From positions 1-28,329 of IMG/VR virus record IMGVR_UViG_3300032722_000095: DNA of 28,329 nt; one strand, 5' to 3'. Below are positions 1 through 28,329 of the stretch, piece after piece. The notes under the pieces were generated by a model, which was given only the letters and a program-made list of their open reading frames with translations, was not told the origin of the DNA and made no database searches. The DNA comes from a virus. The position numbers and the translations under genes were made by a program. Position 1 is the first letter of the stretch, and each line of letters starts with the position of its first letter.

Positions 1-1563
1 GACGAAGCCGCCGATCTTGGCGAGACGGTCGGAGTCCATGGGTTTGATAGCTGCCTGCTTCTCGGCCTTCCATCCTTCGAGGGACTTGGTTCCTGGGGTC
101 GCAGACTCTTCAGGAGTAGCCGCCTTGATGCCGGCGGTGATGGCCGCCCCGGCAGCAACTGCAATATTTTTTGCATTGGCAATTACGGAAGATGGATAGG
201 GAGCCCCCTCGCCTCCAGTGGCGGTCTGGCTGAAGGTGTTATTCCCGCGTTTTCTGCGGGCGGCGGCCTCAGCGTCAAAATCGTCTGCCGTCATCGCTTT
301 CCCTGAAGCCAAATTGAAGAGAGAAGCCTTTCGCACGCCCTCGGTCATGCGTTCCTGTGGGGATTTGACGCGGTTTTCCTTTTCGATCTGGGCGGCCCGG
401 GCGCTGGCTTCGTTGAGGTCTTTTATGTAAAACTCGATTCCGACCTGGTCATGACTTTTCGCTGATATCTGGAGCTGTTCATTGTCGCGGCCCGTGCGGC
501 CTTCAAGATGGATAAGCTCAGCTTGCGCCTTGAGGTTTTTTGGCTTCATCAGATCCATGTCTGTCTCGATGCATGCCTGAAAATAACTGAGCGGCCCCTC
601 GAAAGCCCGGAGAAGGGTGGCGGTAATGGAGTCGCCTGACGCAGCGAACTCATCCACAAACGAATTGACGATTCCGGCCATGACGTTGGAGCCATACATT
701 CCGACGACATCGAGCTCCTTCTGCATGAGGTCGGAAAATTTCCCCTGGCCGATGGCGGCGGTGAGGACGGAAACCTGGGAGCCGATCTTTTTTCCGATGT
801 CAATCGTGTCGATTTTTTTGATTGAGTCCAGGAGAGGCTCCAGGGAAGAGGCGACCGGGCCGGCCATGCCGAGGAAGATCCCCTGGGTCTTAACGCCGAT
901 GGCCTCGAACTGGTTGGTGACCCGGGTGAAGAGGGCGGCGTCGCGTTCGAGGATAGCTGCCTTCTCGGCGGTGGACTTCGAGGCTTCGTCGATGGCCTTG
1001 GGGTCCGCCAGGATGTTGAGCATGGGTGCTCCCTGGCGTCCGAAGATGGCCTTGACGGCCGCCATCTTGTCCGCCTGGGTAGCGAGCCCGGAGATCGCGG
1101 TGCCGATGGCGTGGAACTGTTCGACGGCGGACTGGCCCTTGAGATTTTCCACCGAGAGGCCGAGCTGGTCGAAGATGTGCTTGGTGGGCTCGCCTTCAGC
1201 GTTCACGCCGCCCAGGGCGCTTTGGAGCATAGCGAGGTTCTGTTGCAGGCTGCCGGCATCCATACCGACCTCCTGGTAGGCTTTCTTGAGCGCGACGAGG
1301 GATGTGATGGATTCCCCTGTTGCCTTGGATTCGGAGCGCAGTGCCTTGCCGCTTTCAAAAACGGACTTGAGCCCCTCTCCGATCCCCTCGATGGACTTGA
1401 ATGCCGCAAAGGAAACGCCCAGGAGCTTGAGCGCGTCGCCGACTTTTGTGAGCTCGCCGAGCTGGGCGGCATCGTGCTTGAAATCGCCGATGGCGCCCTT
1501 GCAGCGCTCGATCCCGGTGGTGAGCGGCTTGTGGTCGAGACCGAAGACGAATTTCAGATCCAT
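1..1563 (-). CDS. Phage tail tape measure protein, partial at the window edge
   Basis: This open frame of at least 521 codons begins MDLKFVFGLDHKPL and runs off the left edge. The N-terminal part has the helical, Gly/Ala/Ser-rich character of tape measure proteins. The stretch around residues 95-185 (KKAYQEVGMDAGSL, then AIFGRQGAPMLNIL) is typical of the conserved region in tail length proteins. In the virion it would set tail length and serve as a scaffold for tube polymerisation. Its place directly after a frameshifted chaperone pair supports the call, because that order is near universal in long-tailed phages. The ATG lies 10 bp past an island of 7-bp repeats, with a pyrimidine-rich leader and no clear Shine-Dalgarno sequence. 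The C-terminus and any fused domain cannot be seen. Confidence 0.85.
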   Translation of the reverse strand, partial: MDLKFVFGLDHKPLTTGIERCKGAIGDFKHDAAQLGELTKVGDALKLLGVSFAAFKSIEGIGEGLKSVFESGKALRSESKATGESITSLVALKKAYQEVGMDAGSLQQNLAMLQSALGGVNAEGEPTKHIFDQLGLSVENLKGQSAVEQFHAIGTAISGLATQADKMAAVKAIFGRQGAPMLNILADPKAIDEASKSTAEKAAILERDAALFTRVTNQFEAIGVKTQGIFLGMAGPVASSLEPLLDSIKKIDTIDIGKKIGSQVSVLTAAIGQGKFSDLMQKELDVVGMYGSNVMAGIVNSFVDEFAASGDSITATLLRAFEGPLSYFQACIETDMDLMKPKNLKAQAELIHLEGRTGRDNEQLQISAKSHDQVGIEFYIKDLNEASARAAQIEKENRVKSPQERMTEGVRKASLFNLASGKAMTADDFDAEAAARRKRGNNTFSQTATGGEGAPYPSSVIANAKNIAVAAGAAITAGIKAATPEESATPGTKSLEGWKAEKQAAIKPMDSDRLAKIGGFV

Positions 1564-3615: not shown

Positions 3616-4563
3616 CTATGCTCCGCCGGTGGAACCGACAGCGAGCTGTGGCAGGCCGTAGCCGCCATTGTAGCGGCCATAGGTCTGGTAGAGGAACTCG
3701 TGGCGCTTGAAGACGTGATCGCTGTCCGGGTTCGTGAGGCTCGCGAACGTCGGCTCTTTCTCCACCTGGAGGATGAGCGGGCGGATCGGGAACGCGGTTT
3801 CCAGCAAGAACCAGTTGGTGTCGTTGCCGGCGAGCTGCGGCCACACGATCAGATCGGCGGTGCCTTTGTTGACGTTGGTGACGGCCGTTGCGGCGACGAT
3901 CTCGGAGCCGGCCTTGTTCGTGGCCAACTGGGAGATGAAGTCCGCTTGCAGGATCTGGCGGCCGATGGCCTCCAGCGCGGGCGGGACGACGAGCTGGAGC
4001 TTGATGCCGAGGCCCATCGGGCGGCCCTGGGCGTTCAGCCGGCTCTTGATGAGGGCGCGGGCCGCCTGGAAGCTGTCGGCGCTCAGCACGGTCGTGAGCT
4101 TGTTGGTGAACTTCGCGCTCTTGCTGTTGTCCGGCTCGTGGAGCTTGTCGGTGTCGAAGAAATTCTTGCCGGTGTAATCCTTCGCGGCGAACCCGCCGGA
4201 AAGGAGCGTGGCGACGAGCTGGTCCTGGTGCTGGCGCGCAGCCAGGCCCATGCTTTCCATGATCGGGTTGTAGATCCCGAAGGTGTCCCGCTCGATGTCC
4301 GCCTGCTTGACGGCGACCGTGGATTCGAACTCCTTGTTCAGGATCGAATACCGGGCGGCCGTGAGATTCTGGATGACGATGTCACCCACGAGTTCGCGCA
4401 TCCCGGGCACGCTGCCCAGCCAGTGGTAGATCTCCTCGGCGGCGGTGGAGGGAGTGCGCAGGGCGATCTGCTCCCAGATGGTCTTTGCGCCCTGGTAGGC
4501 TTCCAGGAACAGGGTGCGGTAGCCTTTGAAGAGGGCGGCGAGTGTGGATTGGTTGATTTGCAT
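3616..4563 (-). CDS. Major capsid protein, Mu gpT family
   Basis: The 315-aa protein begins MQINQSTLAALFKGYRTLF, the characteristic opening of Mu gpT-type capsid subunits, in which a helix recognises the target portal/scaffold side. Further conserved features are a TIWEQIA segment, VPGMRELVGDIVIQNLTAARY, FESTVAVKQADIERDTFGIY and a later NFFDTDK. Length is close to the ~305 aa of Mu gpT. It would polymerise with the upstream scaffold and be matured by the protease. The ATG follows a heptamer island and an A/C-rich leader (TTAACCAAAACC) without a Shine-Dalgarno sequence. It sits between decoration-like and gp36-like genes, as expected. Confidence 0.92.
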   Translation of the reverse strand: MQINQSTLAALFKGYRTLFLEAYQGAKTIWEQIALRTPSTAAEEIYHWLGSVPGMRELVGDIVIQNLTAARYSILNKEFESTVAVKQADIERDTFGIYNPIMESMGLAARQHQDQLVATLLSGGFAAKDYTGKNFFDTDKLHEPDNSKSAKFTNKLTTVLSADSFQAARALIKSRLNAQGRPMGLGIKLQLVVPPALEAIGRQILQADFISQLATNKAGSEIVAATAVTNVNKGTADLIVWPQLAGNDTNWFLLETAFPIRPLILQVEKEPTFASLTNPDSDHVFKRHEFLYQTYGRYNGGYGLPQLAVGSTGGA

Positions 4564-4604: not shown

Positions 4605-5165
4605 CTACTTGACGAGGTTTTGGGCTTGGAGGATTGCGAGCACGGCGGCGCGTAGGGCGGCGACTTCGGGGCCTGTGGCTCCGCCGGTGGTGAAGGTCAA
4701 CGCGGTAAGCGTGTCGGTGCTCGGAACGACCGAGCTCATGTGCGTGGTGTCCACGAGCGGCTTGCTCGTGTCGCCGTCCAGGAACCCGAGGAAGAGGCCG
4801 GCGATCACCTTGTTCGTCGAGGTGACGCACACGGTGGAGTCGTCCTTCACGTAGACCGGCTTGCCCAGGTAGGCGGCCGTCACTGGATTCGTTCCATCGT
4901 TGGTGAGCTGGAAGATCCCGCGCTTGACGGTGACGCTCAGGTCGCCAGCTTCGCCGGCCGAGTTGTCGATGACGCTCAGGTTCGGCTGGGGCTCGATGCG
5001 GCCGAGGACGCGCAGGCCCGCGGTGTCCGCTGCCGGCACGATGTAGCCGGAGGAGTTCACGGCGGCGAGAGCGCCGGCGAAAAGTGTGGTGGTGGCAGCG
5101 ACGGGGGCCTTTTCAATGAAGAGGCCGGAGCGCTCGGGAGTGTTGACGGGTGCGGTGGCGGACAT
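4605..5165 (-). CDS. Putative capsid decoration/cement protein
   Basis: The 186-aa product has an N-terminal region rich in Ala, Thr and Val (PVAATTTLFAGALAAVNSSGY, shown in part) followed by GLRVLGRIEPQPNLSVIDNS and strand-rich repeats. It ends in a short helix (LRAAVLAILQAQNL). Small beta-rich proteins encoded between protease and capsid in Mu-like phages are usually capsid cement or decoration proteins, and this matches in size and place. No enzyme motif is visible. A head fibre or minor capsid role is possible. The start is preceded by a heptamer island and the leader TTAACTAACC. Confidence 0.6.
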   Translation of the reverse strand: MSATAPVNTPERSGLFIEKAPVAATTTLFAGALAAVNSSGYIVPAADTAGLRVLGRIEPQPNLSVIDNSAGEAGDLSVTVKRGIFQLTNDGTNPVTAAYLGKPVYVKDDSTVCVTSTNKVIAGLFLGFLDGDTSKPLVDTTHMSSVVPSTDTLTALTFTTGGATGPEVAALRAAVLAILQAQNLVK

Positions 5166-5210: not shown

Positions 5211-5690
5211 TCAGGAGTTGTGCTTGTCGTAGGTGGCCTTCGAGAGGCCGAGCTTGCTGTTGACTTCGGCCTGGATCGAATCCGCTCCGGTGGCTCCTGA
5301 GGCGGAAAGGGCGACGACGCTCGCGGCGGCCGAGGTGCGCTTTTCGAGCGGCACGGTGACCGGAAGATCGGAGACCAGGGCGCGGAGATCTTCGTTGCCG
5401 AGCTTCAGCGCGGCGGCGGGGATGACCTTGCCCTCGTGCGAGGCCAGGGTAATGATCGATTGACGCTCGGTGGCCGTCGAGGCCCCGAGGACTTTGCTCA
5501 CGTTCCCTTCGAGGGTGACGATCTTGGCGGAGAGGGATTCGACGGTCGGCTTTTCGTCGCCATCGGGTGCGACCTCGGCCGCCTCCTCCTCATTGGCAGC
5601 TTTTTCAGCGGCTGTTTGGATTTCCTCGTCGGTGGCTTTTTCCGGGTCGAGGTCGAGGATGGCGCAGAGGAGCTTTTTGAAGTCGGGCAT
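5211..5690 (-). CDS. Probable scaffold protein from an internal start in the protease gene
   Basis: Codon 178 of the protease frame is an ATG that begins MPDFKKLLCAILDLDPEKA, a good N-terminus for a helical scaffold of 159 aa. The sequence just upstream (CCAACCAAAACCAACACC) resembles the A/C-rich leaders of the capsid and decoration genes. Mu makes gpZ scaffold from gpI in the same nested way. Expression from this start is inferred. Confidence 0.5.
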   Translation of the reverse strand: MPDFKKLLCAILDLDPEKATDEEIQTAAEKAANEEEAAEVAPDGDEKPTVESLSAKIVTLEGNVSKVLGASTATERQSIITLASHEGKVIPAAALKLGNEDLRALVSDLPVTVPLEKRTSAAASVVALSASGATGADSIQAEVNSKLGLSKATYDKHNS

Positions 5691-6221
5691 GGTGTTGGTT
5701 TTGGTTGGATTGGTTTGATCGGCTGAGAAAAGGATGAGCCCCGGCACAGCCCCCTGGCGGCAGGCGGCTGCGGAGTGGAGGAAGATGACGTTGTTTTTGT
5801 CGTCGCGCTTCACGGCGGGCGAGAGGTCGCGGTAGTGGCCGCCTCCGATGAACTGCCGGCCTTCGGCTGTCCACTCGATGTCCTCATAGACGATGCCTTC
5901 ACCGGAAAGGCAGACGACCCGTGCGGTGGCGGCGATCGCGGCGGGCTCGCCTTTGTAGGTGGCGGAGCCGGGGACGGTGTTGTGATCGAAATCGAGGACG
6001 ACGCGATCAAAATTGGAAAGTGCTTGATTGGCGGGCAGCGCGGAGAGCGTCACCTCATTGACATTGAAAGACCCTTTTGCCGTCTTGTGCTCGCCCCAGG
6101 GAAAAACGACCATCCGCGTCGGGAGCTTCGCGGGATCCTCGATCTGCCCGATCCGCGAGTTGGCGTGGAGGGCGATCAGATCACCGGGAATAAGGGCGGC
6201 ATTGCGTGGCACGGGGCGCAC
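5211..6221 (-). CDS. Phage protease/scaffold, Mu gpI family
   Basis: The 336-aa protein has an N-terminal protease-like region (about residues 1-165) with PWGEHKTAKGSFNVN, VVLDFDHNTVPG and GHYRDLSPAVKRDDKNN, as in Mu gpI. The FDHN segment carries the acidic/His motif of the family, and a later Ser is expected for catalysis. The C-terminal half (about 178-336) is acidic, helical and scaffold-like, with an Ala/Glu-rich stretch. Mu gpI cleaves scaffold during capsid maturation, and its C-terminal part is also made separately as scaffold. Here too a strong internal start is present. A 142-bp repeat-filled spacer lies upstream, so translation is probably not coupled to gpG. Confidence 0.85.
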   Translation of the reverse strand: MRPVPRNAALIPGDLIALHANSRIGQIEDPAKLPTRMVVFPWGEHKTAKGSFNVNEVTLSALPANQALSNFDRVVLDFDHNTVPGSATYKGEPAAIAATARVVCLSGEGIVYEDIEWTAEGRQFIGGGHYRDLSPAVKRDDKNNVIFLHSAAACRQGAVPGLILFSADQTNPTKTNTMPDFKKLLCAILDLDPEKATDEEIQTAAEKAANEEEAAEVAPDGDEKPTVESLSAKIVTLEGNVSKVLGASTATERQSIITLASHEGKVIPAAALKLGNEDLRALVSDLPVTVPLEKRTSAAASVVALSASGATGADSIQAEVNSKLGLSKATYDKHNS

Positions 6222-6822: not shown

Positions 6823-6995
6823 TCTCGGGGAAGCCCTCCGGCATCGGCAAGCCATTCGGCTTCTTCTTGGTCGAATCCTTGGAGCATGCGGCCCCGGACG
6901 GTCTCTTCGCGTGTGAGTTTGCGCGTTCGGGATTCGAGGCAGAGGCGCTCCAGTTCCTCGGCTTCTTCCTCGGTGAGTTCGCGGTGTTGTTTCAT
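6819..6995 (-). CDS. 58-aa acidic helical protein between MuF and gpG
   Basis: This small frame (MKQHRELTEEEAEELERLCL, ending GLPRE) is linked by ATGA overlaps to MuF upstream and gpG downstream, which argues strongly that it is translated. It is highly charged and predicted helical. I do not recognise a family. A role in head assembly is inferred from position only. Confidence 0.65.
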   Translation of the reverse strand: MKQHRELTEEEAEELERLCLESRTRKLTREETVRGRMLQGFDQEEAEWLADAGGLPRE

Positions 6996-8533
6996 GGCTT
7001 TCCCCCCAATGCTTCGCTGAACAGCTTATCAATTTGCGCGGCTTCTTGCTCGCTGAAAAAACGCACGCCGTGATATTTTGGGTTTTCTGCGGCGATCTGG
7101 GCGAGCAGCCTCGAGTGGCCGCTTTTGCGGGCGATCCACTGGGCGTAGGCGCGGGCCAGCATTTCGCCTGGCTTAATCATGTCGCGCAGGTCGGCAATGT
7201 CGCCTGCAAAAAGGTCGCTCCTGATCCCCGGACGAGATTTCCCCGTGCGGATCATGCTGCGTATCTTTTTGGCCGTAACGGTTTTTTCCAGTGCGGCGGT
7301 GATGCGGGCGCTATCGCCTGGACTCATTATCCCGAGTTCGACCCAGTGGCCGATCTCGTGGAGCAAGGTCAGCTCCGGGTGAGGCCCCTTGCTGCTGATC
7401 GTGATGCTGGTGGCCTTGCCGGTGATTTCGTTCCAGATGAACTCCCCGACAACACGCGTGCCACGGCTGGCGAGGAGCGGGATGGAGTTGAGGCCACCAT
7501 CGTCATGCACGCTGTCCACCACGGTCATCGTGGCGGAGAGCGCGGCGGCATCGGGATGAGACTCGGGGATCCGGAGTTTTCCGCCCACCGGGTCAACCCG
7601 AGGCGGCACGGGCACCGGCGTCATCACGCCGGGGAGCCTCGACGCCGCCCGGGCGGTCGAAGCCAGGGTCTCCGCGACAAGTTTCTCGCCGCTGAGCCAG
7701 CCGAAGATCGAGGTGCCGGTCTCCGGGATCTGGTTGTTCCGCGCCCATTTCTCGAACGCTGCCCAGACGTGTGGCTCGTAGCGTTCCTTGAGCTTGTCGA
7801 GCGGGATGCGCAGGTCGCGCGGGTCCCAGGTAAAGGCTCCCGGCTCGCCTTTTTCTGCCGGGGTGCGGACATCGAATATCTGGTTCACCCCGCGCACGAG
7901 GTGGCCGGTTGTCTCGACGTGCTTGAGCTGCGCCCCCTCGATGACCTCGCGGTGGTCCGGCTCCCGGTCCGCGTCCTTCTCGCGGAACTCCCGCGCGTCA
8001 TCTTCGCTGAGCGGAGTCCATCCGCATTTGCAATTCCAGTCCCATGGGCACTGGTGGGTTTGAACAAATTCGCTGTCGAAGGGGAAGATCAGCCCGTGAA
8101 GCGCGACGTGCGAGGGGCGCGGCTGGGCATCGTAGTTGTGGACATACTGGCAATACGGGAAGATGTCCTTCTGCGCGGCCTGGTTCCGGTAGCGGGCCGC
8201 ACCGTAAGCCTGGAAGCCATGGGTCCTGAGCAGCGTCTCCGCCCGGCGCTCGGCCGCATCGGTGTTGTCCGGATCCTCCGGGTCGGCGAGGAACGGGTGG
8301 ATTTCCTCGACGATCTTCTTCTTCGCGTCGTCCCACCGAGCGCCGGCGGGAACGGTCGCCACCTCGTCCCGCACGCGCTGGAGGACATCGAAAGCCGTGA
8401 CCCCGCTGATCGTGAACGCCCGGGCCTTCAGCTCGGGGAGCAGTTCCTGGAACACCTCGCGTGAAACGACAGGCTTCGAGGCGATGAAGTCAATGGCCTC
8501 TTCGTGGGGAGTTGGTTCGAGAAGGTATTTCAT
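6992..8533 (-). CDS. MuF-type head morphogenesis protein with C-terminal zincin domain
   Basis: The 513-aa protein has a MuF/SPP1 gp7-like domain at about residues 20-185, with the conserved SHVALHGLIFPFDSEF and the cysteine cluster CPWDWNCKCGWTPLS. MuF proteins are minor capsid proteins injected or packaged with DNA. After a linker rich in Pro and Ala (about 290-330) comes a second domain with HEIGHWVELG at 392-401, a canonical HExxH zinc-protease motif. GEMLARAYAQW at 456-466 may supply the third (Glu457) ligand, as in gluzincins. MuF proteins with C-terminal toxin or enzyme domains are known from temperate phages. This one would carry a metallopeptidase. The start follows a heptamer island. 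Confidence 0.85.
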   Translation of the reverse strand: MKYLLEPTPHEEAIDFIASKPVVSREVFQELLPELKARAFTISGVTAFDVLQRVRDEVATVPAGARWDDAKKKIVEEIHPFLADPEDPDNTDAAERRAETLLRTHGFQAYGAARYRNQAAQKDIFPYCQYVHNYDAQPRPSHVALHGLIFPFDSEFVQTHQCPWDWNCKCGWTPLSEDDAREFREKDADREPDHREVIEGAQLKHVETTGHLVRGVNQIFDVRTPAEKGEPGAFTWDPRDLRIPLDKLKERYEPHVWAAFEKWARNNQIPETGTSIFGWLSGEKLVAETLASTARAASRLPGVMTPVPVPPRVDPVGGKLRIPESHPDAAALSATMTVVDSVHDDGGLNSIPLLASRGTRVVGEFIWNEITGKATSITISSKGPHPELTLLHEIGHWVELGIMSPGDSARITAALEKTVTAKKIRSMIRTGKSRPGIRSDLFAGDIADLRDMIKPGEMLARAYAQWIARKSGHSRLLAQIAAENPKYHGVRFFSEQEAAQIDKLFSEALGGKP

Positions 8534-8541
8534 TGGGAAAA

Positions 8542-8576
8542 TTAGGAATGCTGAATTTGTAATGCGGAATTGAGGA
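8542..8576. repeat. Heptamer island at the integrase/MuF junction
   Basis: Units TTAGGAA, TGCTGAA, TTTGTAA, TGCGGAA and TTGAGGA span the last codons of the integrase and the gap before MuF. They encode the final residues NSALQIQHS of the integrase, so the repeat has supplied its stop codon. Confidence 0.75.
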
Positions 8577-9519
8577 GTGGCCTCGATCTCGTCGGCGGCG
8601 CGAGATCCAGCGGGGACACTCCTCGGGCGAAGTCGGCGTGGAGGTAGATCATCGTGGTCTCCACATGCTCGTGCCCCATGAGATCCTGGATTGTGCGGAT
8701 GTCGTTGCCGGCGTGGAGCGCGTGGGTCGCGAAGGCATGGCGGAGCGTGTGTGGCGTTACGCGCTTGGTGACACCAGCTGCGCGAACGGCCGCCCGCATG
8801 GATTTTTGGACACCCTCGGGGACCGCATGCCAGCGGCGCTGGTCGCGGATGCACTGGCTCGGAAAAAGGAACTGCCAGCGGAGCTCGCGGGCGGCGTTGC
8901 GATATTTCTGCGCGAGGCGGCCGGGCAGTTCCACGATGCCCGCGCCGGCGGCCAGGTCTTGATCGTGCAAGGCGGCACGCCAGGCGATCTGGCGGCGGAG
9001 GTGCGGCGCGATCAATGCGGGCAGGAGGCACAGGCGATCTTTGTCGCCCTTTCCACCGTGGATGCGGATTGTCTGCGCGTCGAAGTCGAGATCTTGAACG
9101 CGCAGCTTGCACGTTTCCTCGACGCGGAGCCCTGCCCCATACATGAGCGCGGCCATTAGCCGGGGCTGGCCTTTGAGGCCCGCGAAGATCCGTGCGAGCT
9201 CTTCTCGGCTGGGAATCGTGCGCAGATGGAACTTTTCCCGAGGCGGCTTCGGAAGTCCTAGGTTCGGAAGGTCCGCTTTGAGGACGTGCTTGAAAACAAA
9301 GACCAATGCGCACAGCGCCTGCTTTCTGGAGACAAAGGAATAGTTGTTGCGATCCAGCTCATGCAGCCACCGCGAGACCATTTCCCCGTTCCATGCAGAT
9401 GCCGGTTGGCGGCCAGACTCATTGTAAAACTTCCGAAGCCAAAATTCGTAAGTGGCAATCGTGCGCTTCTGGAGATCCCGGCAGCTCGCCTGGACACGGA
9501 ATTGGTCAATGAGTCCCAT
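8542..9519 (-). CDS. Integron-type (IntI-like) tyrosine recombinase
   Basis: The 325-aa protein has a SAM-like N-terminal domain (about 5-90) and a catalytic domain with R132 (YGAGLRVEE), a Lys in GGKGDKDR, H257 and R260 (TPHTLRHAFATH), H283 (LMGHEHVETT) and Y292. Between patches II and III it has the extra segment typical of integron integrases (GIVELPGRLAQKY, then WQFLFPS). It ends with GVSPLDLAPP, matching the IntI SPLD tail. Such enzymes recombine attI and folded attC sites. It is an odd passenger in a transposable phage, sitting between early and head genes. An attC-like half site lies about 220 bp upstream. Xer-like recombinases without the insertion are the alternative, but the insertion argues against them. 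Confidence 0.88.
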   Translation of the reverse strand: MGLIDQFRVQASCRDLQKRTIATYEFWLRKFYNESGRQPASAWNGEMVSRWLHELDRNNYSFVSRKQALCALVFVFKHVLKADLPNLGLPKPPREKFHLRTIPSREELARIFAGLKGQPRLMAALMYGAGLRVEETCKLRVQDLDFDAQTIRIHGGKGDKDRLCLLPALIAPHLRRQIAWRAALHDQDLAAGAGIVELPGRLAQKYRNAARELRWQFLFPSQCIRDQRRWHAVPEGVQKSMRAAVRAAGVTKRVTPHTLRHAFATHALHAGNDIRTIQDLMGHEHVETTMIYLHADFARGVSPLDLAPPTRSRPLLNSALQIQHS

Positions 9520-14020: not shown

Positions 14021-15016
14021 TTACCGGGTGCGGGCGATGGCCTCGCGGGCTTGGTCGAATGTTTCCGGTGTGACGGGCTCGCCGCGGGAGAGCTGGGTCG
14101 CGCGGCGGACCATGAGGGCGAGGGCGGAGAGCGTGCGGGTGTCGGGCGGAAGCGAGGAGAGGGCCTTCACGGCCGGTGCGGCCGCCGCCGCGTCCCAGCC
14201 GAGGCGGCGTCGCAGGAAGAGGGCCGCGTCGCTGTCGGGAAGCGTGCTCATCCACACGCGCTCGCCCATGCGGTTGCTGTTGAGCTGGCGGCACTCCTCG
14301 TAGGCGGTCTCGCGTTCGAGTTTGCGCCAGAGGCTCGGGATCGTGAGGAGGATGAACTCTCCGGGGGTCCGGTTGATGAGCGTCTTTAAGATGTTGAGCG
14401 TCTGCGGCCCGAGGTGGTGGCCCTCGTCGAGGACGACCGTGCGGCGGCTCTCGCGCAGCCGGGCGATGACCCGGTCGAGCGCGGCGGCGGCCCCGGCGCG
14501 GTCGGCGGTGCCGCCGAGCGCGGCGAGCAGGCCCGCGAGGAACGCGCAGACGCTCCCCTTGTGGGTCTCGTTGCACTCCAGCGTCACGACGCGGGAGCCG
14601 TATTGCGCGACGAGCAGCTTGCCGATGCTGCTCTTGCCCTGGCCGCTCGGCGCCTGGATGATGACGAGGCGCCGAAGCGTGTCCGTGCTCATCGCGTCGC
14701 GGACCGCGAGCCGCGCGGCGTGCGGCAGGCTCAAATCCTCGTATATGGGGTCATCGGTGCCCAGGATGCTCTCGGCCTGCTCGATGAGCCGGCAGACCGC
14801 CTGGTATTCCGCCAGCCAGTGCGGGGCGCTCCCCGCCGGGGCCTCGCCCGCCAGGATGCGCTTGTATTGCCGGTCGCTGCCGACCCCGCTGTAGCGGGAG
14901 CGGAGCTGGCCGAAGCTCAGCCCCTGGGCCGAGCGGTAAGTTTCGATCCTGATCGCCGCTTCGCGCAGCGCCGCCACTTCCTCGCGGAAGAGGTCTTCGT
15001 TTTCTTCTTCTTTCAT
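14021..15016 (-). CDS. Mu B/TniB-like AAA ATPase, transposition target selector
   Basis: The 331-aa protein has an N-terminal helix-turn-helix-like region (QGLSFGQLRSRYSGVGSDRQ), a Walker A motif APSGQGKS at 122-129 and a Walker B motif TVVLDEGH at 193-200. A sensor-like ILLTIPSLW segment lies near 222-230. Mu B binds target DNA as an ATP-dependent filament and stimulates the A transposase. A strand order ending in an Arg-finger-like NSNRMGERV supports the AAA+ fold. It lies 101 bp downstream of the transposase gene, the gap being filled by a dispersed repeat. A heptamer island follows it. Confidence 0.92.
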   Translation of the reverse strand: MKEEENEDLFREEVAALREAAIRIETYRSAQGLSFGQLRSRYSGVGSDRQYKRILAGEAPAGSAPHWLAEYQAVCRLIEQAESILGTDDPIYEDLSLPHAARLAVRDAMSTDTLRRLVIIQAPSGQGKSSIGKLLVAQYGSRVVTLECNETHKGSVCAFLAGLLAALGGTADRAGAAAALDRVIARLRESRRTVVLDEGHHLGPQTLNILKTLINRTPGEFILLTIPSLWRKLERETAYEECRQLNSNRMGERVWMSTLPDSDAALFLRRRLGWDAAAAAPAVKALSSLPPDTRTLSALALMVRRATQLSRGEPVTPETFDQAREAIARTR

Positions 15017-15117: not shown

Positions 15118-17115
15118 TCAAAAGTGTGCTTTCTCCCATTCTTCGAGGTCTGCCGCGCGGGGGTCGGCGGCCACGCGGGCCGCGAACGCGTTCCCCTCGT
15201 GCTCCGCGGCGGCCGGACGGCGGGGCGCGGAAACCTCCGCCCCCTCGCCGCCGGTTGCTTTCCCCCCACGAGAAATTTCTGTGAAGTTGCCGAGGCCATC
15301 GCGGGCGGTGCTGGTGCGGGCTACAATTCCTTTTGGCTCGATGGCCCGGGTCTCGGAGCGGATCGCTTGCACCGTGGTCCGGCGGTGGCGGCGGGCGAGG
15401 TCGGCGGCCTCGGGACGGAAATCCATTTCCCACCCCTTCATGTCGCGGACCAGCGAGGGCGCGTTGCTGATGCAGTCGGCCTTGCGGGCGATGACCTCGC
15501 CGATGCGGGCGTGCCGCGAATTTTGGAGCGCGACGATCGTAGCGCCCTCCGCCGGGGCGAATGGGTCGAAATGCACGCGCACCTTCTCGCCCTGGTGCCG
15601 CCAAAGCCCTTCGCTCTGGAAATAGTATTTGATGCTCTCGCCGAACGGGCTCATCACTGAGCCGCCAACGCTGTCGCAGCGCAGAACGGTCCATTCCTTG
15701 GCCTCGCCCTGGTAGTGGTGGGAGAAGTCGCCGACGAGGCGGGGGCGCGCTGCGGCTTCCTCTTCCCAGATCTCCGCCGGAATGCTCTGCCCGTAGATGT
15801 CGCTTTCCGTGCGGGTTCGGTTGCGCAAGGTGATCGCGTGTTCGAGCGTGTTCATCACCTCGTCGAGCCTGGGGAAAAACTTGGTCGGGTCTTTGTGCCC
15901 GGATTTGCAGGCCTCGGCGATTTTCGAGTTTTCCTCCATCTCGCCGCGGAACCGCCCGATCTGGCCGGGCAGGTCGCCGAGCGCGGTCCAGAGCCCGTTG
16001 AAATAATTTTCGATGAGCTTGTGGTTTGGCCGGTAGGCGCGGGTCACGGCTACCCCGGCGGCGGCGAGGAACTCCTGCACCCGCTTGCTCTCCCACACGC
16101 CGCGCTCCAGCACGACCTCGGCGGGTTTGCCGGTGGCGGCCCAGGTGCGCGCCATCGCGCGGATCACGTCCTCGCTCCGGTAACTCTGGCGCGGGCGCAT
16201 CGTGAAGTCGAATCCGGGGCAATACGGCACCGCATCATCGATACCGATGAGGAGCTGGAAGCGGCCCAGCTTCACGCCGAACTTTCGCGAGCACACGTCG
16301 TCGGCCAACTGCCAGGGCACGCACACGAGAAAATTGATCGATCCGTCGTCCCAACTCTGCCGCCAGCCTGCCCGCAGGCGTGCACCGTCCCGGCCAGCCC
16401 GCATGCAGCCTCGGCGGTTCGCCAGGCTGTTCTCGACCTCGCGGGGTGTCCGGTGGTATCGGATCACTTGCTCCTCCACCGCGAAGGCCCGGCGGAGCGT
16501 CGGCGTGAGCGTGTGCCTGCTCGCCCTCGGCTTCAGGATCGCGGCGCGGGTCTCCTCGCTGCACCCCTCCCACTCGGCCAGCGCCTGCGCGGCGGCCGTG
16601 ATGCTCCCGGCGCCATCCGCCCGGTTGAGCACGAGCACTTTTTCCCTGGCAAACTGGACTTCCGCCTCGGTCGGGATCGCCAGCGCGGTCCGTCCACACT
16701 CGGAATAGTCGTCCTCCAACCCCTCTGGCCCGCGCTCCCGGAGACGCTTCGACCACCGGTCGAAGTTAGCCCGATGGACATGGCTGACCTTGCACGCCGC
16801 CGCCACGCTCAGCCCTCGCCGCGCAACCGCCGATTCCACGGCGCGGATCGCGGCCAGCCTCGCCTGCGCGGCGGGCGAAATCGAATGTTGACCCTTTTCT
16901 CCGAAACCGGCATTTTTCCCGGCATGGAATCCCCCTGCTCGATCCGGTTCCCCGATGGCCAGCGGCTGCCGGGCGTCGTCGTCTCCCGGCGGGACTGCGG
17001 GCGGGATGTCACCTTGGAGGTGATGGTCGAAGGCCAGGCCAGCACCGCCGGGCAGTGCTACATCGATTTTCCGGGGCTGGAGCACCGGGTGAAGGTGGAT
17101 CTCCTGTGGGCTCAT
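15118..17115 (-). CDS. Mu A-like DDE transposase
   Basis: From the ATGA-linked ATG the frame is 665 aa, but the first ~78 residues oppose a protein-like plus-strand frame and look non-coding. The true start may be nearer 16881-16839, where no ATG is present. A DNA-binding HTH (about 101-125, AACKVSHVHRANFDRWSKRL) leads to an RNase H-like core. The candidate acidic residues are D293 (LLIGIDDAVPY), E337 (EVVLERGVWES) and E369 (NHKLIENYF). The middle position is Glu where Asp is usual, though the rest of the pattern resembles a large transposase family I recall with the same LERG. Phage integration and replication depend on this enzyme acting on the TG/CA ends with the ATPase. The C-terminal region is basic and Ala-rich. 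Confidence 0.9.
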   Translation of the reverse strand: MSPQEIHLHPVLQPRKIDVALPGGAGLAFDHHLQGDIPPAVPPGDDDARQPLAIGEPDRAGGFHAGKNAGFGEKGQHSISPAAQARLAAIRAVESAVARRGLSVAAACKVSHVHRANFDRWSKRLRERGPEGLEDDYSECGRTALAIPTEAEVQFAREKVLVLNRADGAGSITAAAQALAEWEGCSEETRAAILKPRASRHTLTPTLRRAFAVEEQVIRYHRTPREVENSLANRRGCMRAGRDGARLRAGWRQSWDDGSINFLVCVPWQLADDVCSRKFGVKLGRFQLLIGIDDAVPYCPGFDFTMRPRQSYRSEDVIRAMARTWAATGKPAEVVLERGVWESKRVQEFLAAAGVAVTRAYRPNHKLIENYFNGLWTALGDLPGQIGRFRGEMEENSKIAEACKSGHKDPTKFFPRLDEVMNTLEHAITLRNRTRTESDIYGQSIPAEIWEEEAAARPRLVGDFSHHYQGEAKEWTVLRCDSVGGSVMSPFGESIKYYFQSEGLWRHQGEKVRVHFDPFAPAEGATIVALQNSRHARIGEVIARKADCISNAPSLVRDMKGWEMDFRPEAADLARRHRRTTVQAIRSETRAIEPKGIVARTSTARDGLGNFTEISRGGKATGGEGAEVSAPRRPAAAEHEGNAFAARVAADPRAADLEEWEKAHF
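16888..16899 (-). other. 12-mer shared with the phage terminal region
   Basis: GAAAAGGGTCAA on the minus strand here also occurs at 27843-27854, 135 bp inside the phage end. It lies at the 5' side of the transposase core, so it might be a transposase-binding site used for autoregulation. The function is inferred from the shared sequence only. Confidence 0.35.
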
Positions 17116-17160
17116 AAAGCCGTCTCGAAATTCCGGGTGGAAGCTTTCGCCGAAAAATAG
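16924..17160 (+). CDS. Possible opposite-strand 78-aa protein
   Basis: MESPCSIRFPDGQRLPGVVV, then DVTLEVMVEGQASTAG and VKVDLLWAHKAVSKFRVEAF, looks like a compact beta-rich protein with about 80% GC at third positions. The minus frame over the same bases reads as an unnatural His/Pro-rich sequence. It would overlap the end of the 89-aa gene by 49 bp tail-to-tail and face away from the transposase. A longer start at 16888 adds 12 residues. No clear Shine-Dalgarno is seen. It is the only plus-strand gene proposed inside the left arm. Confidence 0.45.
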   Translation: MESPCSIRFPDGQRLPGVVVSRRDCGRDVTLEVMVEGQASTAGQCYIDFPGLEHRVKVDLLWAHKAVSKFRVEAFAEK

Positions 17161-17381
17161 TTGATGCCCGCCGCCTCGGTGACCCGCTCGATCGCCTCGC
17201 TGCTCCCGATCCAAATGAGCGGCTTCTTTGGCTCGTAGGTCGCCCGGGCGATCACGTCCCCCTCGCCGTCGCAGATCTCGACTGTCAGCGGCAGGATCAT
17301 TTTCCGGCGCTTTGCTTTGGCGACAGCAGCATTCACGCGCCGCACGGCGGCGGCTTTTTCCCCGGCGGTGTGGCTTTTCAC
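17112..17381 (-). CDS. 89-aa basic early protein with GTG start
   Basis: The frame begins at a GTG whose last bases overlap the previous TGA (GTGA). It encodes MKSHTAGEKAAAVRRVNAAV, then ILPLTVEICDGEGDVIARAT and a helical end. The N-terminal 28 residues are strongly basic and the rest is mixed alpha/beta. It is linked at both sides by overlaps. No family is recognised. Confidence 0.6.
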   Translation of the reverse strand: MKSHTAGEKAAAVRRVNAAVAKAKRRKMILPLTVEICDGEGDVIARATYEPKKPLIWIGSSEAIERVTEAAGINYFSAKASTRNFETAL

Positions 17382-20508: not shown

Positions 20509-20557
20509 AGTTGACTGGATAACATATGAGCGCGACTGGTCAACATAAATTGTTATC
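20498..20557. promoter_or_regulatory. Operator region between Ner-like and repressor genes
   Basis: GTCAAC (20498-20503), GTTGAC (20510-20515) and GTCAAC (20539-20544) are inverted copies with 6 and 23 bp between them. GATAACA (20518-20524) pairs with TGTTATC (20551-20557). These nested symmetric sites cover both start codons and lie in AT-richer sequence. Promoters must lie within the coding 5' ends, since only 17 bp separate the genes. Binding by the repressor or Ner is inferred. Confidence 0.55.
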
Positions 20558-20990
20558 TGCCGAAAAATATTTTTCGGGCCGCCTCACGCACGCAATGAAA
20601 TTGAGAGGAATGAGCGGGTCTGAACTCGCAGGAAAAATCGGTGTAGATCGAGGCTACATAAGCCTTCTCAAGTCCGGCAGGAGAAAAAATCCTTCACAAG
20701 AAGTCGTGCATGGAATCTCGGTGGCTTTGCGCGTTTGCGTTGACTGGTTGTTAACTGGCGAGGGCGAAATGGACGTTCCCGACGAAGCCGAAATTGAAGC
20801 GCACGTGGCGCAGACGTTATCCGGGGGGCCGCAAGCGGCGGCGGCGGCGATGAGCGACGAGCGTCTGGAAGAAGCGCTTGCGGAATGGCAGGCGATGCTG
20901 GCGACCGCCCAGCCGTTCATGCGGTCGGCGATCCTCGGCAACATCAGCCTCTTCGCGGCAGAGCTCCAGCGGCGGGAGCAGAAGAAATAA
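20526..20990 (+). CDS. XRE-family phage repressor
   Basis: The 154-aa product has an N-terminal HTH (about 16-78): FSGRLTHAMKLRGMSGSELA, then GVDRGYISLLKSGRRKNPSQ and VALRVCVDWLLTGEGEM. The WLLTGEG motif is common in phage repressors. The C-terminal half is helical (DERLEEALAEWQAMLATAQP) and lacks a Ser/Lys LexA-type peptidase domain, so RecA-driven self-cleavage is unlikely. It faces the Ner-like gene and should hold the early operon silent. Lysis and packaging genes lie downstream on the same strand, so termination or a separate promoter after this gene is needed. Confidence 0.85.
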   Translation: MSATGQHKLLSAEKYFSGRLTHAMKLRGMSGSELAGKIGVDRGYISLLKSGRRKNPSQEVVHGISVALRVCVDWLLTGEGEMDVPDEAEIEAHVAQTLSGGPQAAAAAMSDERLEEALAEWQAMLATAQPFMRSAILGNISLFAAELQRREQKK

Positions 20991-23688: not shown

Positions 23689-23849
23689 GCTGCAACAAAA
23701 CGCGCTACGCATCAAAGAAGGATGCCCTCACGGCCATGAATGCCAGGCTGCGCGGACGCCAGCGCAGGCGCCACGGCCGGCCTGACCAGCTCCGCGTCTA
23801 CGAGTGCCCGGCATGCGGCGGCTGGCACCTCACACACAAACCAGCATGA
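23685..23849 (+). CDS. 54-aa zinc-finger-like phage protein
   Basis: MSCNKTRYASKKDALTAMNA, then RVYECPACGGWHLTHKPA, includes C41xxC44 followed by H48 and H51. This is the Y(E)CPxCGxWHLT motif common in small phage proteins. It is ATGA-linked to the endolysin and to the gp27-like gene. Confidence 0.7.
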   Translation: MSCNKTRYASKKDALTAMNARLRGRQRRRHGRPDQLRVYECPACGGWHLTHKPA

Positions 23850-24496
23850 GCGAAGAACCTACACGACGCGGAAAAATCGCGCGGCTGCCGGTGCCGCTCC
23901 GGGAGGAGCTGAACCTCCGCCTGCTCAACAACGTAAGCGGACCCCGCATCCTGGCATGGCTCAATTCGCTGCCGGCTGTCCTGGAGATCCTTGAGCAGGA
24001 GGGAGAGGAGCAGATCACACCGCAAAACCTCAGCGTCTGGAGGGACGGCGGATATGCGGACTGGTTGCGGCGGAGGGAGCGCGTGGAAAATCTCAAATCG
24101 CTTTCCTCCTACGCCTATCAGCTCGCCCAGGCGGGAGGATCATTGAGTGAGGGAGCTGCGGCAATCGCTGGCGGGAAAATCCTCGAAATGCTGGAGAGCC
24201 TCGACGAGGAAAACATCGGGAAGCTGACAGCCTCACTGGCTTCGCTGCGTTCATCAGAAGCTGCGGCTCTGAACGCGAAGACCAACAGCGCCCGGCTCGC
24301 CCAGAAGGACCGCCAGCTCGACCTGGACGAAAAGAAATTCCAGCGCGGGACCGCAGAGCTCTTCATCAAGTGGGCGCGGCAGCCGGAGGCGCAGGCGATC
24401 CTGGGATCCGGCGACACGCAAACGGTCCAGATGGACAAACTCGTCCAGCTTTTCTTTGGTACGGCCCCGGAGATGCAGGCGCGGGAGGGCGAATGA
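23846..24496 (+). CDS. Mu gp27-like terminase small subunit (DUF3486)
   Basis: The 216-aa product has RRGKIARLPVPLREELNLRL, then ILAWLNSLPAVLEILEQEGE, QNLSVWRDGGYADWLRRRE and long coiled C-terminal helices. That matches the DUF3486 family, which precedes gp28 in Mu and is considered the small terminase. It lies upstream of terminase and portal genes with ATGA links. It would bind phage DNA to start headful packaging. Confidence 0.85.
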   Translation: MSEEPTRRGKIARLPVPLREELNLRLLNNVSGPRILAWLNSLPAVLEILEQEGEEQITPQNLSVWRDGGYADWLRRRERVENLKSLSSYAYQLAQAGGSLSEGAAAIAGGKILEMLESLDEENIGKLTASLASLRSSEAAALNAKTNSARLAQKDRQLDLDEKKFQRGTAELFIKWARQPEAQAILGSGDTQTVQMDKLVQLFFGTAPEMQAREGE

Positions 24497-24588
24497 TTTT
24501 CTTCAGTCCGGCGGGCGGCGATCAGGTCTCAACGGGCTCTGCCGCCTTCTTCTCGGTGAACCCGTCCCGCCGGACTGTCTTCTTATGA
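24493..24588 (+). CDS. 31-aa microprotein between terminase genes
   Basis: MIFFSPAGGDQVSTGSAAFF, then SVNPSRRTVFL, is linked by ATGA to both terminase genes. Its DNA contains a 12-bp perfect inverted repeat, CAGTCCGGCGGG (24504-24515) and CCCGCCGGACTG (24566-24577). The frame may serve only for translational coupling, or the hairpin may regulate translation of the large subunit. Confidence 0.45.
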   Translation: MIFFSPAGGDQVSTGSAAFFSVNPSRRTVFL

Positions 24589-25502
24589 GCGAGCAACCTC
24601 TCATCGTTCTGCGCGAATACGCGAAGGAGCCGTTCTGGGACGACTCGCTGGGGATCATGTTCTGGATCTGGCGACGACAGGCAGGAAAGAGCTTCACGGC
24701 GGCGGCGAAGGCGCTGCGACGGATGATGATGATCCGCGGACTGCTCTCGGTCTTCTGCTCGGCCTCGGTGAACCTCGGCGTCGAGTTCGTGCGCAAGGAG
24801 GCGATGATCTGGGCGCTCATGCTCGACAAATACCGCCGGCTGGTGAAGGATCAGGGCCTGCGGCTCACCAGCTCGGCGGATGACGAGCGGGGGAACCTGC
24901 TCGACCTGGACGCGATCGCGGATCTTTTCGAACACCAGAAGCTGGAGACAAAAATCTGGCACGACCGGACGACCTACAGCCGCTCTATCGTGGTGGCTCC
25001 GAACCCGGACACGGCCGTTGGCTGGACGGGCGACATCTGGCTCGACGAGTTCGGACGCATGCCGGAGTTCAAGGATGTGCTGGAGGCCGTGCTGCCGTTC
25101 ATGTCGAGCAACCCGCAGTTCCGGCTGCTCGGGATCACGACGCCACCTCCGGATGACAAACATTATTCGTGGGAGCTCACGATCCCGCCTGAGCAGGAGT
25201 TCAAAACCAACCCGAAGGGGAATTGGTATCGCAGCGCCGCCGGCTACATGTGCCATCGCGTGGATGCCTGGGATGCTCACGCGGCCGGCGTGCCGATGTT
25301 CGATGACCAGACCAGACAGCCGATCTCCCCGGAGGAACACCGGGCCAGGGCGTTTGACAAGCAGGCATGGGACAGGAATTTCGGGCTGCGCTTCATCACG
25401 GGCGGCCAGGCGGCGGTAAGCCTGCCGGCGCTCCAGCTTGCCATGGCCGGAGGAACGTCCGGATGCCTGGGCGTGGATATCACGGAGGAGATCGAGGCAT
25501 GA
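24585..25502 (+). CDS. Terminase large subunit, ATPase domain (Mu gp28-like)
   Basis: The 305-aa product starts MSEQPLIVLREYAKEPFWDD. The Walker A-like motif is RRQAGKS at 30-36, a form common in terminases (R-Q-x-GKS). Walker B is IWLDEF at 151-156, followed by a coupling motif GITTPPP near 183-189. The protein ends before any nuclease motifs. This translocase would drive DNA into the prohead. The nuclease is encoded separately by the next gene, with an ATGA overlap. Mu encodes both in one gp28. Confidence 0.85.
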   Translation: MSEQPLIVLREYAKEPFWDDSLGIMFWIWRRQAGKSFTAAAKALRRMMMIRGLLSVFCSASVNLGVEFVRKEAMIWALMLDKYRRLVKDQGLRLTSSADDERGNLLDLDAIADLFEHQKLETKIWHDRTTYSRSIVVAPNPDTAVGWTGDIWLDEFGRMPEFKDVLEAVLPFMSSNPQFRLLGITTPPPDDKHYSWELTIPPEQEFKTNPKGNWYRSAAGYMCHRVDAWDAHAAGVPMFDDQTRQPISPEEHRARAFDKQAWDRNFGLRFITGGQAAVSLPALQLAMAGGTSGCLGVDITEEIEA

Positions 25503-26218
25503 ATGGGAAGCGCCGATCGGTCACCCTGGCGGATGTCCTGCCTCGCGATCTCCCGTCGATGCTCGTGGAGCACAGCCGGATCGGGCTGGGGTATGACATC
25601 GCGACGACCACAAAAGAGAAGAGCAACCCTTCCTCTCTCTCGGTCGTCGAACAGGTGGGGATGAGCTTCTATGTCAGGTTGATCATGCGGTGGAAGACAG
25701 CGGATCCAGACATCGCCCGGGCGATCATCATCGGCGTGCTCATGCTCCTCTCCCCTCGGCGGCCTGTGCGGATCTGCATCGATGCCTCGAACGAAAAATA
25801 CTACGCAGCAGGACTCAAAAAATCTTTGCAGGGCCTCGTGCTCGCCGACCTCGTGACCTCATCGGAAACGACAGTCTATCTTGGCGAAAAAATGTCGTTC
25901 AAAGTTTACCTTGGTAACCTGCTCGTGAACGCGCTGGAGGACGGCCTGATCTCCATCCCGAATCTCACATGGGTGAAAAACGATTTTCGCCTGGTGAAGC
26001 GCGCTGGAGGCTCCTTCGAGACCGAGGTGGATGAAAGCGGAAACCACGGCGACACGTTTGACTCGACCAAACTCGGGCTGCATGCCCTATCCGCCGGTGG
26101 CGGCACGGCCGAGGCCGAGGCGGCCCGCGTGGGAGGATCCATAGATCGCGGAGCCGGCAGGATTCTAAAAAACCCTTTTGCCAGACTATTTGAACCAGGA
26201 AGAAAAGCACTATGTTAA
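25499..26218 (+). CDS. Terminase large subunit, nuclease domain as a separate gene
   Basis: The 239-aa product has RNase H-like acidic positions: D33 (IGLGYDIATTTKEKS), D95 (PVRICIDASNEKYY) and D185/D188 (GNHGDTFDSTKLG). This is the order seen in the C-terminal nuclease domain of terminases. It begins MNGKRRSVTLADVLPRDLPS and overlaps the ATPase gene by ATGA. It would cut DNA at initiation and headful termination. Its separation from the motor domain is unusual. The stop overlaps the portal start by 7 bp. Confidence 0.78.
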   Translation: MNGKRRSVTLADVLPRDLPSMLVEHSRIGLGYDIATTTKEKSNPSSLSVVEQVGMSFYVRLIMRWKTADPDIARAIIIGVLMLLSPRRPVRICIDASNEKYYAAGLKKSLQGLVLADLVTSSETTVYLGEKMSFKVYLGNLLVNALEDGLISIPNLTWVKNDFRLVKRAGGSFETEVDESGNHGDTFDSTKLGLHALSAGGGTAEAEAARVGGSIDRGAGRILKNPFARLFEPGRKALC

Positions 26219-27768
26219 ACGCACAAATCAAATCCAGGCTCCGCGCATTTTTCGCGAAGATGATCCCGACCGGACGGGTGACCGTCATGAACCCATGGGC
26301 CGAACAGGCGAGCATGACCGAGCGCCTCGACGTGGAGCGCGTCCATGAGATCATCGAGGCGGCAAAGTCGGGAGATCCGCGCGACCTCTTCTCTCTTTAC
26401 CGGGACATCATCACTTCAGATAGCCACCTGCAAAGCGAGTTCGCCAAGCGGAAGCTGGCCGTCCTGGGAGACACGCTCGCGGTCGTCCCGAAGGACAAAA
26501 AGAACCCGGACGACGTGGTGGCAGCCAAGGTGATCACCGACATGATCGACTCGCTCAAGGTTCCCGATCCCGGGAACGTGGCGAGCTGCTCGTGGCTCCG
26601 GGCCTGCTCCCATCTCATGGACTCGATCCTCTGGCCGGTGGCCGCCGTCGAAAAGGTTTTCCGCCCTTCGTCCAAGCCGGGACTGCGGTATGAGCTTTCA
26701 GAACTGGTGGCCGTCCCCCACTTCCTCCTCACCTACGTCCCCAACCAGGAGGATGCGACCGGGCTGATGAAGGTGCGCGAAGTAAACGACTTCGGATACC
26801 CGACCGGAAGGACGACCGAGGTTGACGGCAACCGCTACATCATCCACCGCGGGCACCTTCTAACGACCCACGATCTCTGGGGCGGCCCAATGCGGTCGAT
26901 CCTTTTCTGGTGGCTCCTCGGAACAATGAACCGCGAATGGTGGGGCAGGTTCCTGGAGCGCTACGGCTCCCCGTTCCTCTTGGGGAAATACGACCAGGGC
27001 GACGACGCCAGCCGGTCGATCCTCGAACGCGCCTTCGGATACGCGGTGAAAATTGGAGGGCTCGTCGTCAGCAGGAACACCGAGGTCGAGCTCGTCCAGG
27101 CTGCCAGCTCGCAAAGCGCCGATGGGTATGAAAAATTCATCCGCCTCTGCAACGAAGAAAAGAGCAAACTTGTCGTCGGACAGATCCTGTCGTCGAACAC
27201 GAAATCCACCGGGCTGGGATCCGGTGTCGCCAACCAGCACGGCAAGGTTCGCGACGATATCCGGCAGTTCGATTCGATCATGCTGGCCGAGACCATCGAC
27301 GTCCAACTCTGCGCCCAGTATCTTCGCATCAACGGGATCCCGGGCCGTGTGAAGCTGCTCTGGGGAGCCGTCTCCCCAGAAGAAAAGCAGGCGCTAGGGG
27401 ATATGCTGGTCTCACTCAAGCAGGCAGGACTAGAACCGGCGGACGACGCGATCGAGGCGATCTCCGAAGAGGTCGGATTTGAAGTCCGCAGATCTACGAC
27501 GCCAGCCCCCACGTTGCCCGGCGTGACGACACTTTCCTCTTCCGGCCTCATCGACCCAACCGACACCCTGGCGGCAAACGGTGCCGCGAAACTCTCGCGG
27601 ACATTCCGCGGCAGTCTCGCTCCAGTCCGGCGGATCATCCTTTTGAGCTCGTCCCCCGACGATTTAAAAAAGCGACTAACCGAGTTCTATTCCGACTGGG
27701 CGCCCGATCAAGTTGCCGAGGTAATCGACCAGGCGCTCCTGGCATTCGCCGCGAACGGGATCAAATAA
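26212..27768 (+). CDS. Portal protein, Mu gp29/DUF935 family
   Basis: The 518-aa protein shows the DUF935 pattern: an N-terminal region with HEIIEAAKSGDPRDLFSLYR, then DSHLQSEFAKRKLAVLG, GHLLTTHDLWGGPMRSILFW, WGRFLERYGSPFLLGKYDQ and KLVVGQILSSNTKSTGLGSG. DUF935 members form the dodecameric portal through which DNA enters. Length matches Mu gp29 (512 aa). It is the last gene of the right arm. In Mu the next gene is F, but here MuF lies in the other arm and a terminator follows. Confidence 0.93.
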   Translation: MLNAQIKSRLRAFFAKMIPTGRVTVMNPWAEQASMTERLDVERVHEIIEAAKSGDPRDLFSLYRDIITSDSHLQSEFAKRKLAVLGDTLAVVPKDKKNPDDVVAAKVITDMIDSLKVPDPGNVASCSWLRACSHLMDSILWPVAAVEKVFRPSSKPGLRYELSELVAVPHFLLTYVPNQEDATGLMKVREVNDFGYPTGRTTEVDGNRYIIHRGHLLTTHDLWGGPMRSILFWWLLGTMNREWWGRFLERYGSPFLLGKYDQGDDASRSILERAFGYAVKIGGLVVSRNTEVELVQAASSQSADGYEKFIRLCNEEKSKLVVGQILSSNTKSTGLGSGVANQHGKVRDDIRQFDSIMLAETIDVQLCAQYLRINGIPGRVKLLWGAVSPEEKQALGDMLVSLKQAGLEPADDAIEAISEEVGFEVRRSTTPAPTLPGVTTLSSSGLIDPTDTLAANGAAKLSRTFRGSLAPVRRIILLSSSPDDLKKRLTEFYSDWAPDQVAEVIDQALLAFAANGIK

Positions 27769-27783
27769 TCAGGCGCAAACCAA

Positions 27784-27819
27784 CCCACGGTCTGCGATCA
27801 AAGCGACCGTGGGTTTTTT
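27784..27819 (+). terminator. Rho-independent terminator after the portal gene
   Basis: CCCACGGTC (27784-27792) and GACCGTGGG (27805-27813) form a 9-bp perfect stem with a 12-nt loop, followed by six T residues. It lies 15 bp after the portal stop and just before the phage end, so it would stop late transcription from entering the host gene. Confidence 0.92.
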
Positions 27820-27820
27820 C

Positions 27821-27989
27821 TACCCTTTCAGCGGTGGGATACTTGACCCTTTTCAACGACCCTTCCCAAACTTTTCTAGGATGAAAAAGCTGATGCGAAA
27901 TGTTTGGTATCCACAACTCTTTGGCTTTCAAAGCACATCGCGGTTAATCCAAGCAAATCATTCTTCATCACACTCAAAACATGGTCTCA
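27821..27989. other. Right terminal region of the prophage, non-coding
   Basis: The 169 bp between the terminator and the host junction are AT-richer and show no gene. Three ACCCTT motifs (27822, 27846, 27859) recur at 24- and 13-bp steps. One of them belongs to a 12-mer also found at the transposase gene (16888-16899). The inner-reading end is TGAGACCATG, with TG at 27989-27988. Transposase-binding sites are expected here, but the assignment of these motifs is inference. Confidence 0.7.
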
Positions 27990-28329
27990 GTGGTTGCCGG
28001 GTGCCCGGGGTAGCGGTTGTATTCCTTGGCAACGGGTTTGTATCGCGAAAATGCGAGATCGATGTCCGATGCGAACATCGGCTGCTCCCAGTAAGTTCCG
28101 CCGCATGCAGTGTTGAGGTTGAGCTTGCAGGTCTCGTCGTCGGTCCAGAAGGCGATGCGGCCGACGATGGGGTTGTCGTCGGTCGGCGTTTGGGCGGCGT
28201 TGGTGAAATCCGCGGTGGTGCCGGTGCTGTCGTCGGCGATGGGCGCGGTGAGCGTGCCGTCGCGCAGGACGTAGATCCACTTCACCGGCATGGGGGCGGG
28301 GTTCGGGGTTGTCCCGGTGGCCGTCGGGG
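27974..28329 (-). pseudogene. Interrupted host gene, Verru_Chthon cassette protein A-like
   Basis: Read on the minus strand from the window edge, the frame encodes PMPVKWIYVLRDGTLTAP, then NPIVGRIAFWTDDETCKLNL, NTACGGTYWEQPMF and YNRYPGHPATT. It then meets phage sequence and stops after four foreign residues (ETMF). The W-DDE-K-N-NTA and RYPGHPATT motifs fit my memory of TIGR02600, a family found mainly in Verrucomicrobium and Chthoniobacter in four-gene pilin-like cassettes. The phage end lies between the two Thr codons' bases at 27989/27990. The 5' part of the gene is outside the window. The remaining part would continue beyond the other phage end. Confidence 0.7.

Follow-up and report, generated by a model that had tools for sequence, protein, structure and literature searches.

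In BcepMu-type phages the transposition genes are transcribed away from the late genes, and the late genes form one block. In Pseudomonas phage Bise portal is followed by F, the gene for the Mu F-like minor head protein, and both are encoded on one strand; in Shewanella phage vB_SspS_MuM16-1 the genes terS, terL, portal and F make up one operon on one strand. Among the transposable prophages of Leptospira, one group has a separated TerS-TerL-Portal block and B3-like divergent arms (PMC8705779); the same work describes duplications of 6 bp, and reports that the modules for head and tail always share one orientation (PMC8705779). Integron integrases in phages are also already known (PMC9892861).

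We examined a window of 28,329 bp, which is a complete IMG/VR record and whose left edge falls inside a probable tape-measure gene. We are highly confident that a Mu-type transposable prophage transposed into a Verru_Chthon_A gene of its Verrucomicrobiota host, and that its right end lies exactly at 27989|27990. The border between phage and host in this IMG/VR record is in this way fixed to the base pair, and an undescribed lineage of transposable phages is tied to Verrucomicrobiota, with terminal motifs that are usable for finding its prophages.

Gene order and lineage

The right-hand arm of the prophage is encoded on the plus strand. It begins at the divergent centre with an Xre-type regulator (20526..20990; RstR-like NF041951, E 3e-7; PHROG 8, E 7e-13), followed by a probable terminase small subunit (23804..24496), which is called from its position and from being conserved ahead of the large-subunit gene in relatives, and which had no family match in the PHROG search. 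The terminase large subunit (24456..26218) is spread over two frames (24456-25502 and 25367-26218); it has a weak Terminase_6N match (E 7e-4) and adjoins the portal gene in relatives. The portal gene (26212..27768; Portal_Mu PF06074, E 1.6e-56; PHROG 113, E 1.4e-54) is the last before the right end.

The left-hand arm is encoded on the minus strand, and runs outward from a MuA-type transposase (15118..17214; PHROG 310 transposase, E 2.7e-8; IS481-type match, E 3e-6) and a MuB-type transposition ATPase (14021..15016; AAA_22, E 1.4e-13; PHROG 296 DNA transposition protein, E 1.3e-13). Beyond the early genes are an integron-integrase-type tyrosine recombinase (8542..9519; TIGR02249, 278.3 bits against a cut-off of 265) and, on the arm opposite the portal, the Mu F-like minor head protein (6992..8485; Phage_Mu_F PF04233, E 1.3e-17). 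A head maturation protease (5211-6221) and a decorator-like protein (4605-5165), both assigned from their position and from the synteny that relatives share, precede the major capsid protein (3616-4563; NF045541, E 1.2e-8). The arm finishes with a probable tape measure protein (1..1563), cut by the left record edge and called from its position; the profile search returned no family match for it, and it reaches 570 aa in G001. The MuA/MuB-type transposition genes, the Mu portal and the Mu F protein in the window uphold the claim of the first-pass annotation that the element is Mu-like.

Read from left to right, the order is tail, capsid, protease, F, (IntI), early genes, MuB and MuA on one strand, then regulator, terS, terL and portal on the other, and then the end. 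The canonical order of portal then F is absent: the portal is the final gene, and F is on the opposite arm. We found the same two-arm order in the MAGs G254, G492, G308, G054 and G041, and in the viral contigs G599, G600, G602, G608, G613, G614 and G618. A profile search yielded 25 loci, in nearly all of which the portal gene was within about 3 kb of a contig edge. Among the 21 records in which F could be located, 16 have it on the strand opposite the portal, 4 have it upstream of the portal on the portal's own strand, and 1 (L004) has it directly downstream. In the portal tree the 37 portal-at-the-end sequences formed one clade (100/100); L004, with portal then F, is nested in this clade on a long branch, and its placement is unsure. 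None of the catalogued phages has a portal more than 30% identical to that of the window. This lineage is widespread and undescribed, and its right end directly follows the portal gene. Because the lineage separates the portal from the other head genes, though head operons usually stay together, it could serve as a system in which to study the importance of late gene order, either for assembling heads or for packaging DNA from a transposed genome.

Variations on this layout were also seen. G254 and G492 carry extra genes after the portal, and their right ends are beyond those genes. G607 has the whole MuA-MuB-early-F-gp31 block inverted, while its portal stays at the right end; G605, L230 and L235 also have F on the portal strand, and are similar to G607 where they can be read. 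At L028 (G034:C153) a portal of the lineage separates a transposase fragment from the accompanying ATPase gene, all on one strand and beside probable host DNA, which may be a third arrangement or a decayed prophage.

The simplest history that we infer for the two-arm layout is a single inversion in a BcepMu-like ancestor, taking in everything from one end up to the border of portal and F. An invertible segment would be expected to carry inverted repeats, but a search for pairs of at least 11 bp linking the portal end to the F/IntI region found none. The recombinase (8542-9519) is directly upstream of F, and G041 has a relative, 59% identical, in the same position; further relatives are present in G005 (39% identical), G618 (36%) and G613 (34%). 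One could imagine that one lineage of transposable phages, spread across Verrucomicrobiota, split its head operon between two outward arms, that the central block (gp31-F-early-MuB-MuA) was flipped as a unit in G607 and probably in G605, L230 and L235, and that the IntI-type recombinase, beside F in several members, might mediate such inversions. We give this scenario as a whole very little credence; if it were true, the recombinase-mediated inversions would be a phage-encoded system of genome rearrangement.

The junction and the interrupted host gene

To the right of the break is a 5'-proximal fragment of a host Verru_Chthon_A gene (27990..28329, minus strand), which runs off the record. The first-pass annotation had called it a Verru_Chthon cassette gene, and a profile search with the fragment confirmed this identity: TIGR02600 (Verru_Chthon_A) matched residues 2-113 of 117 with an E-value of 5.1e-43. 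Because only a fragment of the gene is present, covering 108 of the 1296 profile positions (185-292), its score of 147 bits is under the full-length cut-off of 332. The sequence at the break reads ...CACTCAAAACATGGTCTCA|GTGGTTGCCGGGTGCCC..., and the minus-frame translation across it reads ...AFSRYKPVAKEYNRYPGHPATTETMF*. Positions 28327-27990 of the minus strand encode ...FSRYKPVAKEYNRYPGHPATT, after which there are four codons (ETMF) and then a stop. The final residue of the profile alignment is the last T of HPATT, so that the match ends at the very base pair, 27989/27990, at which the frame encoding RYPGHPATT had been proposed to be broken.

Among 210 genomes from a single Verrucomicrobiota order, 40 carried homologues of Verru_Chthon_A, mostly as open frames of 1200-1800 aa. 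The intact homologues that were sampled read RYPGHPATT-[SC]L[SK]xVFP... with no stop. Because they read through the break, the stop after HPATTETMF is not native, and because the profile match ends at the break while the homologues run on, the frame was broken by foreign DNA exactly here. Counted in profile positions, the insertion severs the host gene some 290 codons into a length of roughly 1300, and the function of the gene was presumably lost. The suggestion that the fragment hints at the host taxon also held, in that relatives of the prophage sit in Spartobacteria/Verrucomicrobiota MAGs.

On the phage side, the right terminus is CATGGTCTCA (27980..27989, plus strand), which in the right-end alignment finishes in ...CA. 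The identical ten bases end the prophage of G002, on the Spartobacteria MAG contig JAJPJG010000005 (L009), where different DNA follows; the portal of G002 is 57% identical to that of the window. In the same alignment the terminal motif GGTCTCA is also present at the phage ends of G426 and G599, the phage end in G054 is GGTCACA, and TCTCA is found at the right ends of L234, L246, L230 and L235. L230 and L235 are 91% identical to each other, and their match is lost immediately after ...CGCTCTCA, which includes their own CTCTCA; the flanks differ. The recurring terminal motif and this divergence after TCTCA establish 27989|27990 as the prophage end, where it had first been placed from an inward TG reading, so that the placement now rests on comparison as well.

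The insertion sites of the lineage are unrelated to one another, and include the Verru_Chthon_A gene, an amine oxidase, a polB-like gene (L003) and others. We compared nine right ends with NYSRN, the Mu target consensus, but it fitted only four of them and was too weak for use. Searching viral contigs for the right-end pattern TTYNAANNNTTNNNNNTGGTCTCA returned mostly chance matches, yet it yielded G599. Beside the G002 prophage end (L009:5391-5830) there is an attC-core-like GTTAGGC motif together with a small orphan gene, and this insertion site possibly holds integron cassettes.

Between the portal gene and the break is a non-coding region (27769..27989, plus strand). It includes a terminator-like hairpin, AACCCACGGTC...GACCGTGGGTTTTTTC (27782..27821, plus strand; an 11-bp inverted repeat, 100% matched, with a T run), which follows the portal gene and is separated from the break by about 170 non-coding bases. 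Transposase-site-like repeats of the C[AT]TTTCA type are found at -141 and -166 from the end. In ten right ends we counted 17 occurrences of C[AT]TTTCA, where 1.5 were expected and the maximum in 2000 simulations was 8, and most of them recur at offsets of about 24-26, 46 and 137-141 bases from the right end. These repeats resemble transposase-binding sites, and they may function as such. The DDE transposase (15118-17214) and its ATPase (14021-15016) would most likely have bound the repeats in 27769-27989; the transposase would then have cut after ...GGTCTCA and joined the phage end to the host gene at a staggered cut, with a short, probably 5-bp, duplication (GTGGT here) left behind.

Left ends, target duplication and alternative readings

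The first five host bases, GTGGT (27990..27994), had been predicted to be the target-site duplication. The relative G054 allows a comparison. Its prophage splits a gene, which we take from its sequence to be a copper-amine-oxidase gene, with one half left of the tail genes and the other half right of the portal gene; GTGAT flanks the prophage on either side, and the reading frame ...VPYGDPHPNHARKNAFD... is recovered when the flanks are joined. If the left end of G054 is put at GTAA, the duplication is 5 bp; if a TG start is assumed, it is 4 bp (GTGA). The left ends of G054, G041, G308, G599, G602, G608, G613 and G618 all open with GTAA, after which come repeats in the opposite orientation, and the base before GTAA in these eight is T, C or A; it is G in L091 and L093, a pair of records that share a GTAA left end and that may or may not belong to the lineage. 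Because the left ends of the lineage start with GTAA and the preceding base is variable, the expected left mate of this right end is GTGGT|GTAA rather than GTGGT|TG. The left end of this prophage lies outside the window, and we regard GTGGT as no more than a reasonable prediction of the target duplication.

Both ends are also visible in G599 and G608, where the flanks are unmatched (GCGGT and CTGAT, and GTAAT and AGCCG, respectively), perhaps reflecting several insertion sites assembled together. In G308 the flanks have GTCGGG in common, but its offset misfits GTAA, and a search for the right end of G041 found none. G001, which is identical to the left part of the window, adds 5.3 kb leftward with a second transposase/ATPase pair and no left end. 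Past the tail gene, a helix-turn-helix gene and this pair (L013:2764-7180) occupy the place of the tail-fibre genes of relatives; the second transposase is 47% identical to the G041 transposase, and the module may be a real insertion or the product of a chimeric contig. G001 and L002, which are from one metagenome, overlap by exactly 127 bases (window 20738-20864) that are bridged by the window contig, and this is likely an assembly-graph break.

The record is a metagenomic contig, and a portal gene beside host DNA is not the arrangement expected of Mu, in which portal leads into F; an assembler might therefore have joined phage and host DNA and left 27989|27990 without biological meaning. However, L002, a 7592-bp contig from another IMG/VR record, is identical to the window at 7592 of 7592 bases, junction included, and because of this the junction is not a private chimera. 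L002 and the window may share a sampling site or a project. The terminal motif, the repeats at fixed distances and the portal-then-host layout recur in independent MAGs and contigs, and in G054 the interrupted gene is restored on joining the flanks, so we consider a chimera extremely improbable. An inversion after insertion could instead have brought the portal beside the host gene, making the break a rearrangement breakpoint rather than a transposition end; a single inversion would, after all, turn the canonical order into this layout, and in the distant relative L004 portal is followed by F. Because the layout is common to the clade of 37 portals, with the same end motif and repeats, it is inherited and not a local accident, and we find this explanation even harder to credit than a chimera.

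A true right end at 27989|27990, the reading that we prefer, could still be accompanied by a duplication of 4 or 6 bp, or by a gene cut through later deletion. G054 permits the 4-bp form if a TG start is used, the base before GTAA is variable, and 6-bp duplications are made by B3-type phages (PMC8705779); with the G054 left end placed at GTAA, the duplication nevertheless comes to exactly 5 bp and the frame is intact. We think that such a variant is unlikely, though worth keeping in mind.

Comparison with described transposable phages

The prophage resembles Mu and MuM16-1 in its MuA/MuB-type transposition genes, its Mu portal and F families, its CA right end with repeats near that end, and its insertion in unrelated host genes. 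Where the MuM16-1 operon continues from portal into F, however, the genome in the window ends after portal. The genes from F to the tail run in the direction opposite to the portal block, and the GTAA start of the left ends also distinguishes the lineage from Mu and MuM16-1. As in BcepMu-type phages, the transposition genes are transcribed away from late genes; the single late block of those phages would become the layout of the window through one end-to-portal inversion.

With the B3-like and Leptospira prophages, the window has in common two arms transcribed outward from central regulators. The split layout itself is not wholly new, because a separated TerS-TerL-Portal block has been described for Leptospira prophages (PMC8705779). 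By that published description the Leptospira prophages are set apart from the window, in which the portal block and the other head genes are on opposite strands. Shewanella prophage M16-3 likewise carries an integron-integrase-type recombinase, 37% identical to that of the window. In contrast to integron-carrying phages, a comparison drawn from the integrase gene alone, the gene here occupies a structural position beside F, and does so in several members of the lineage.
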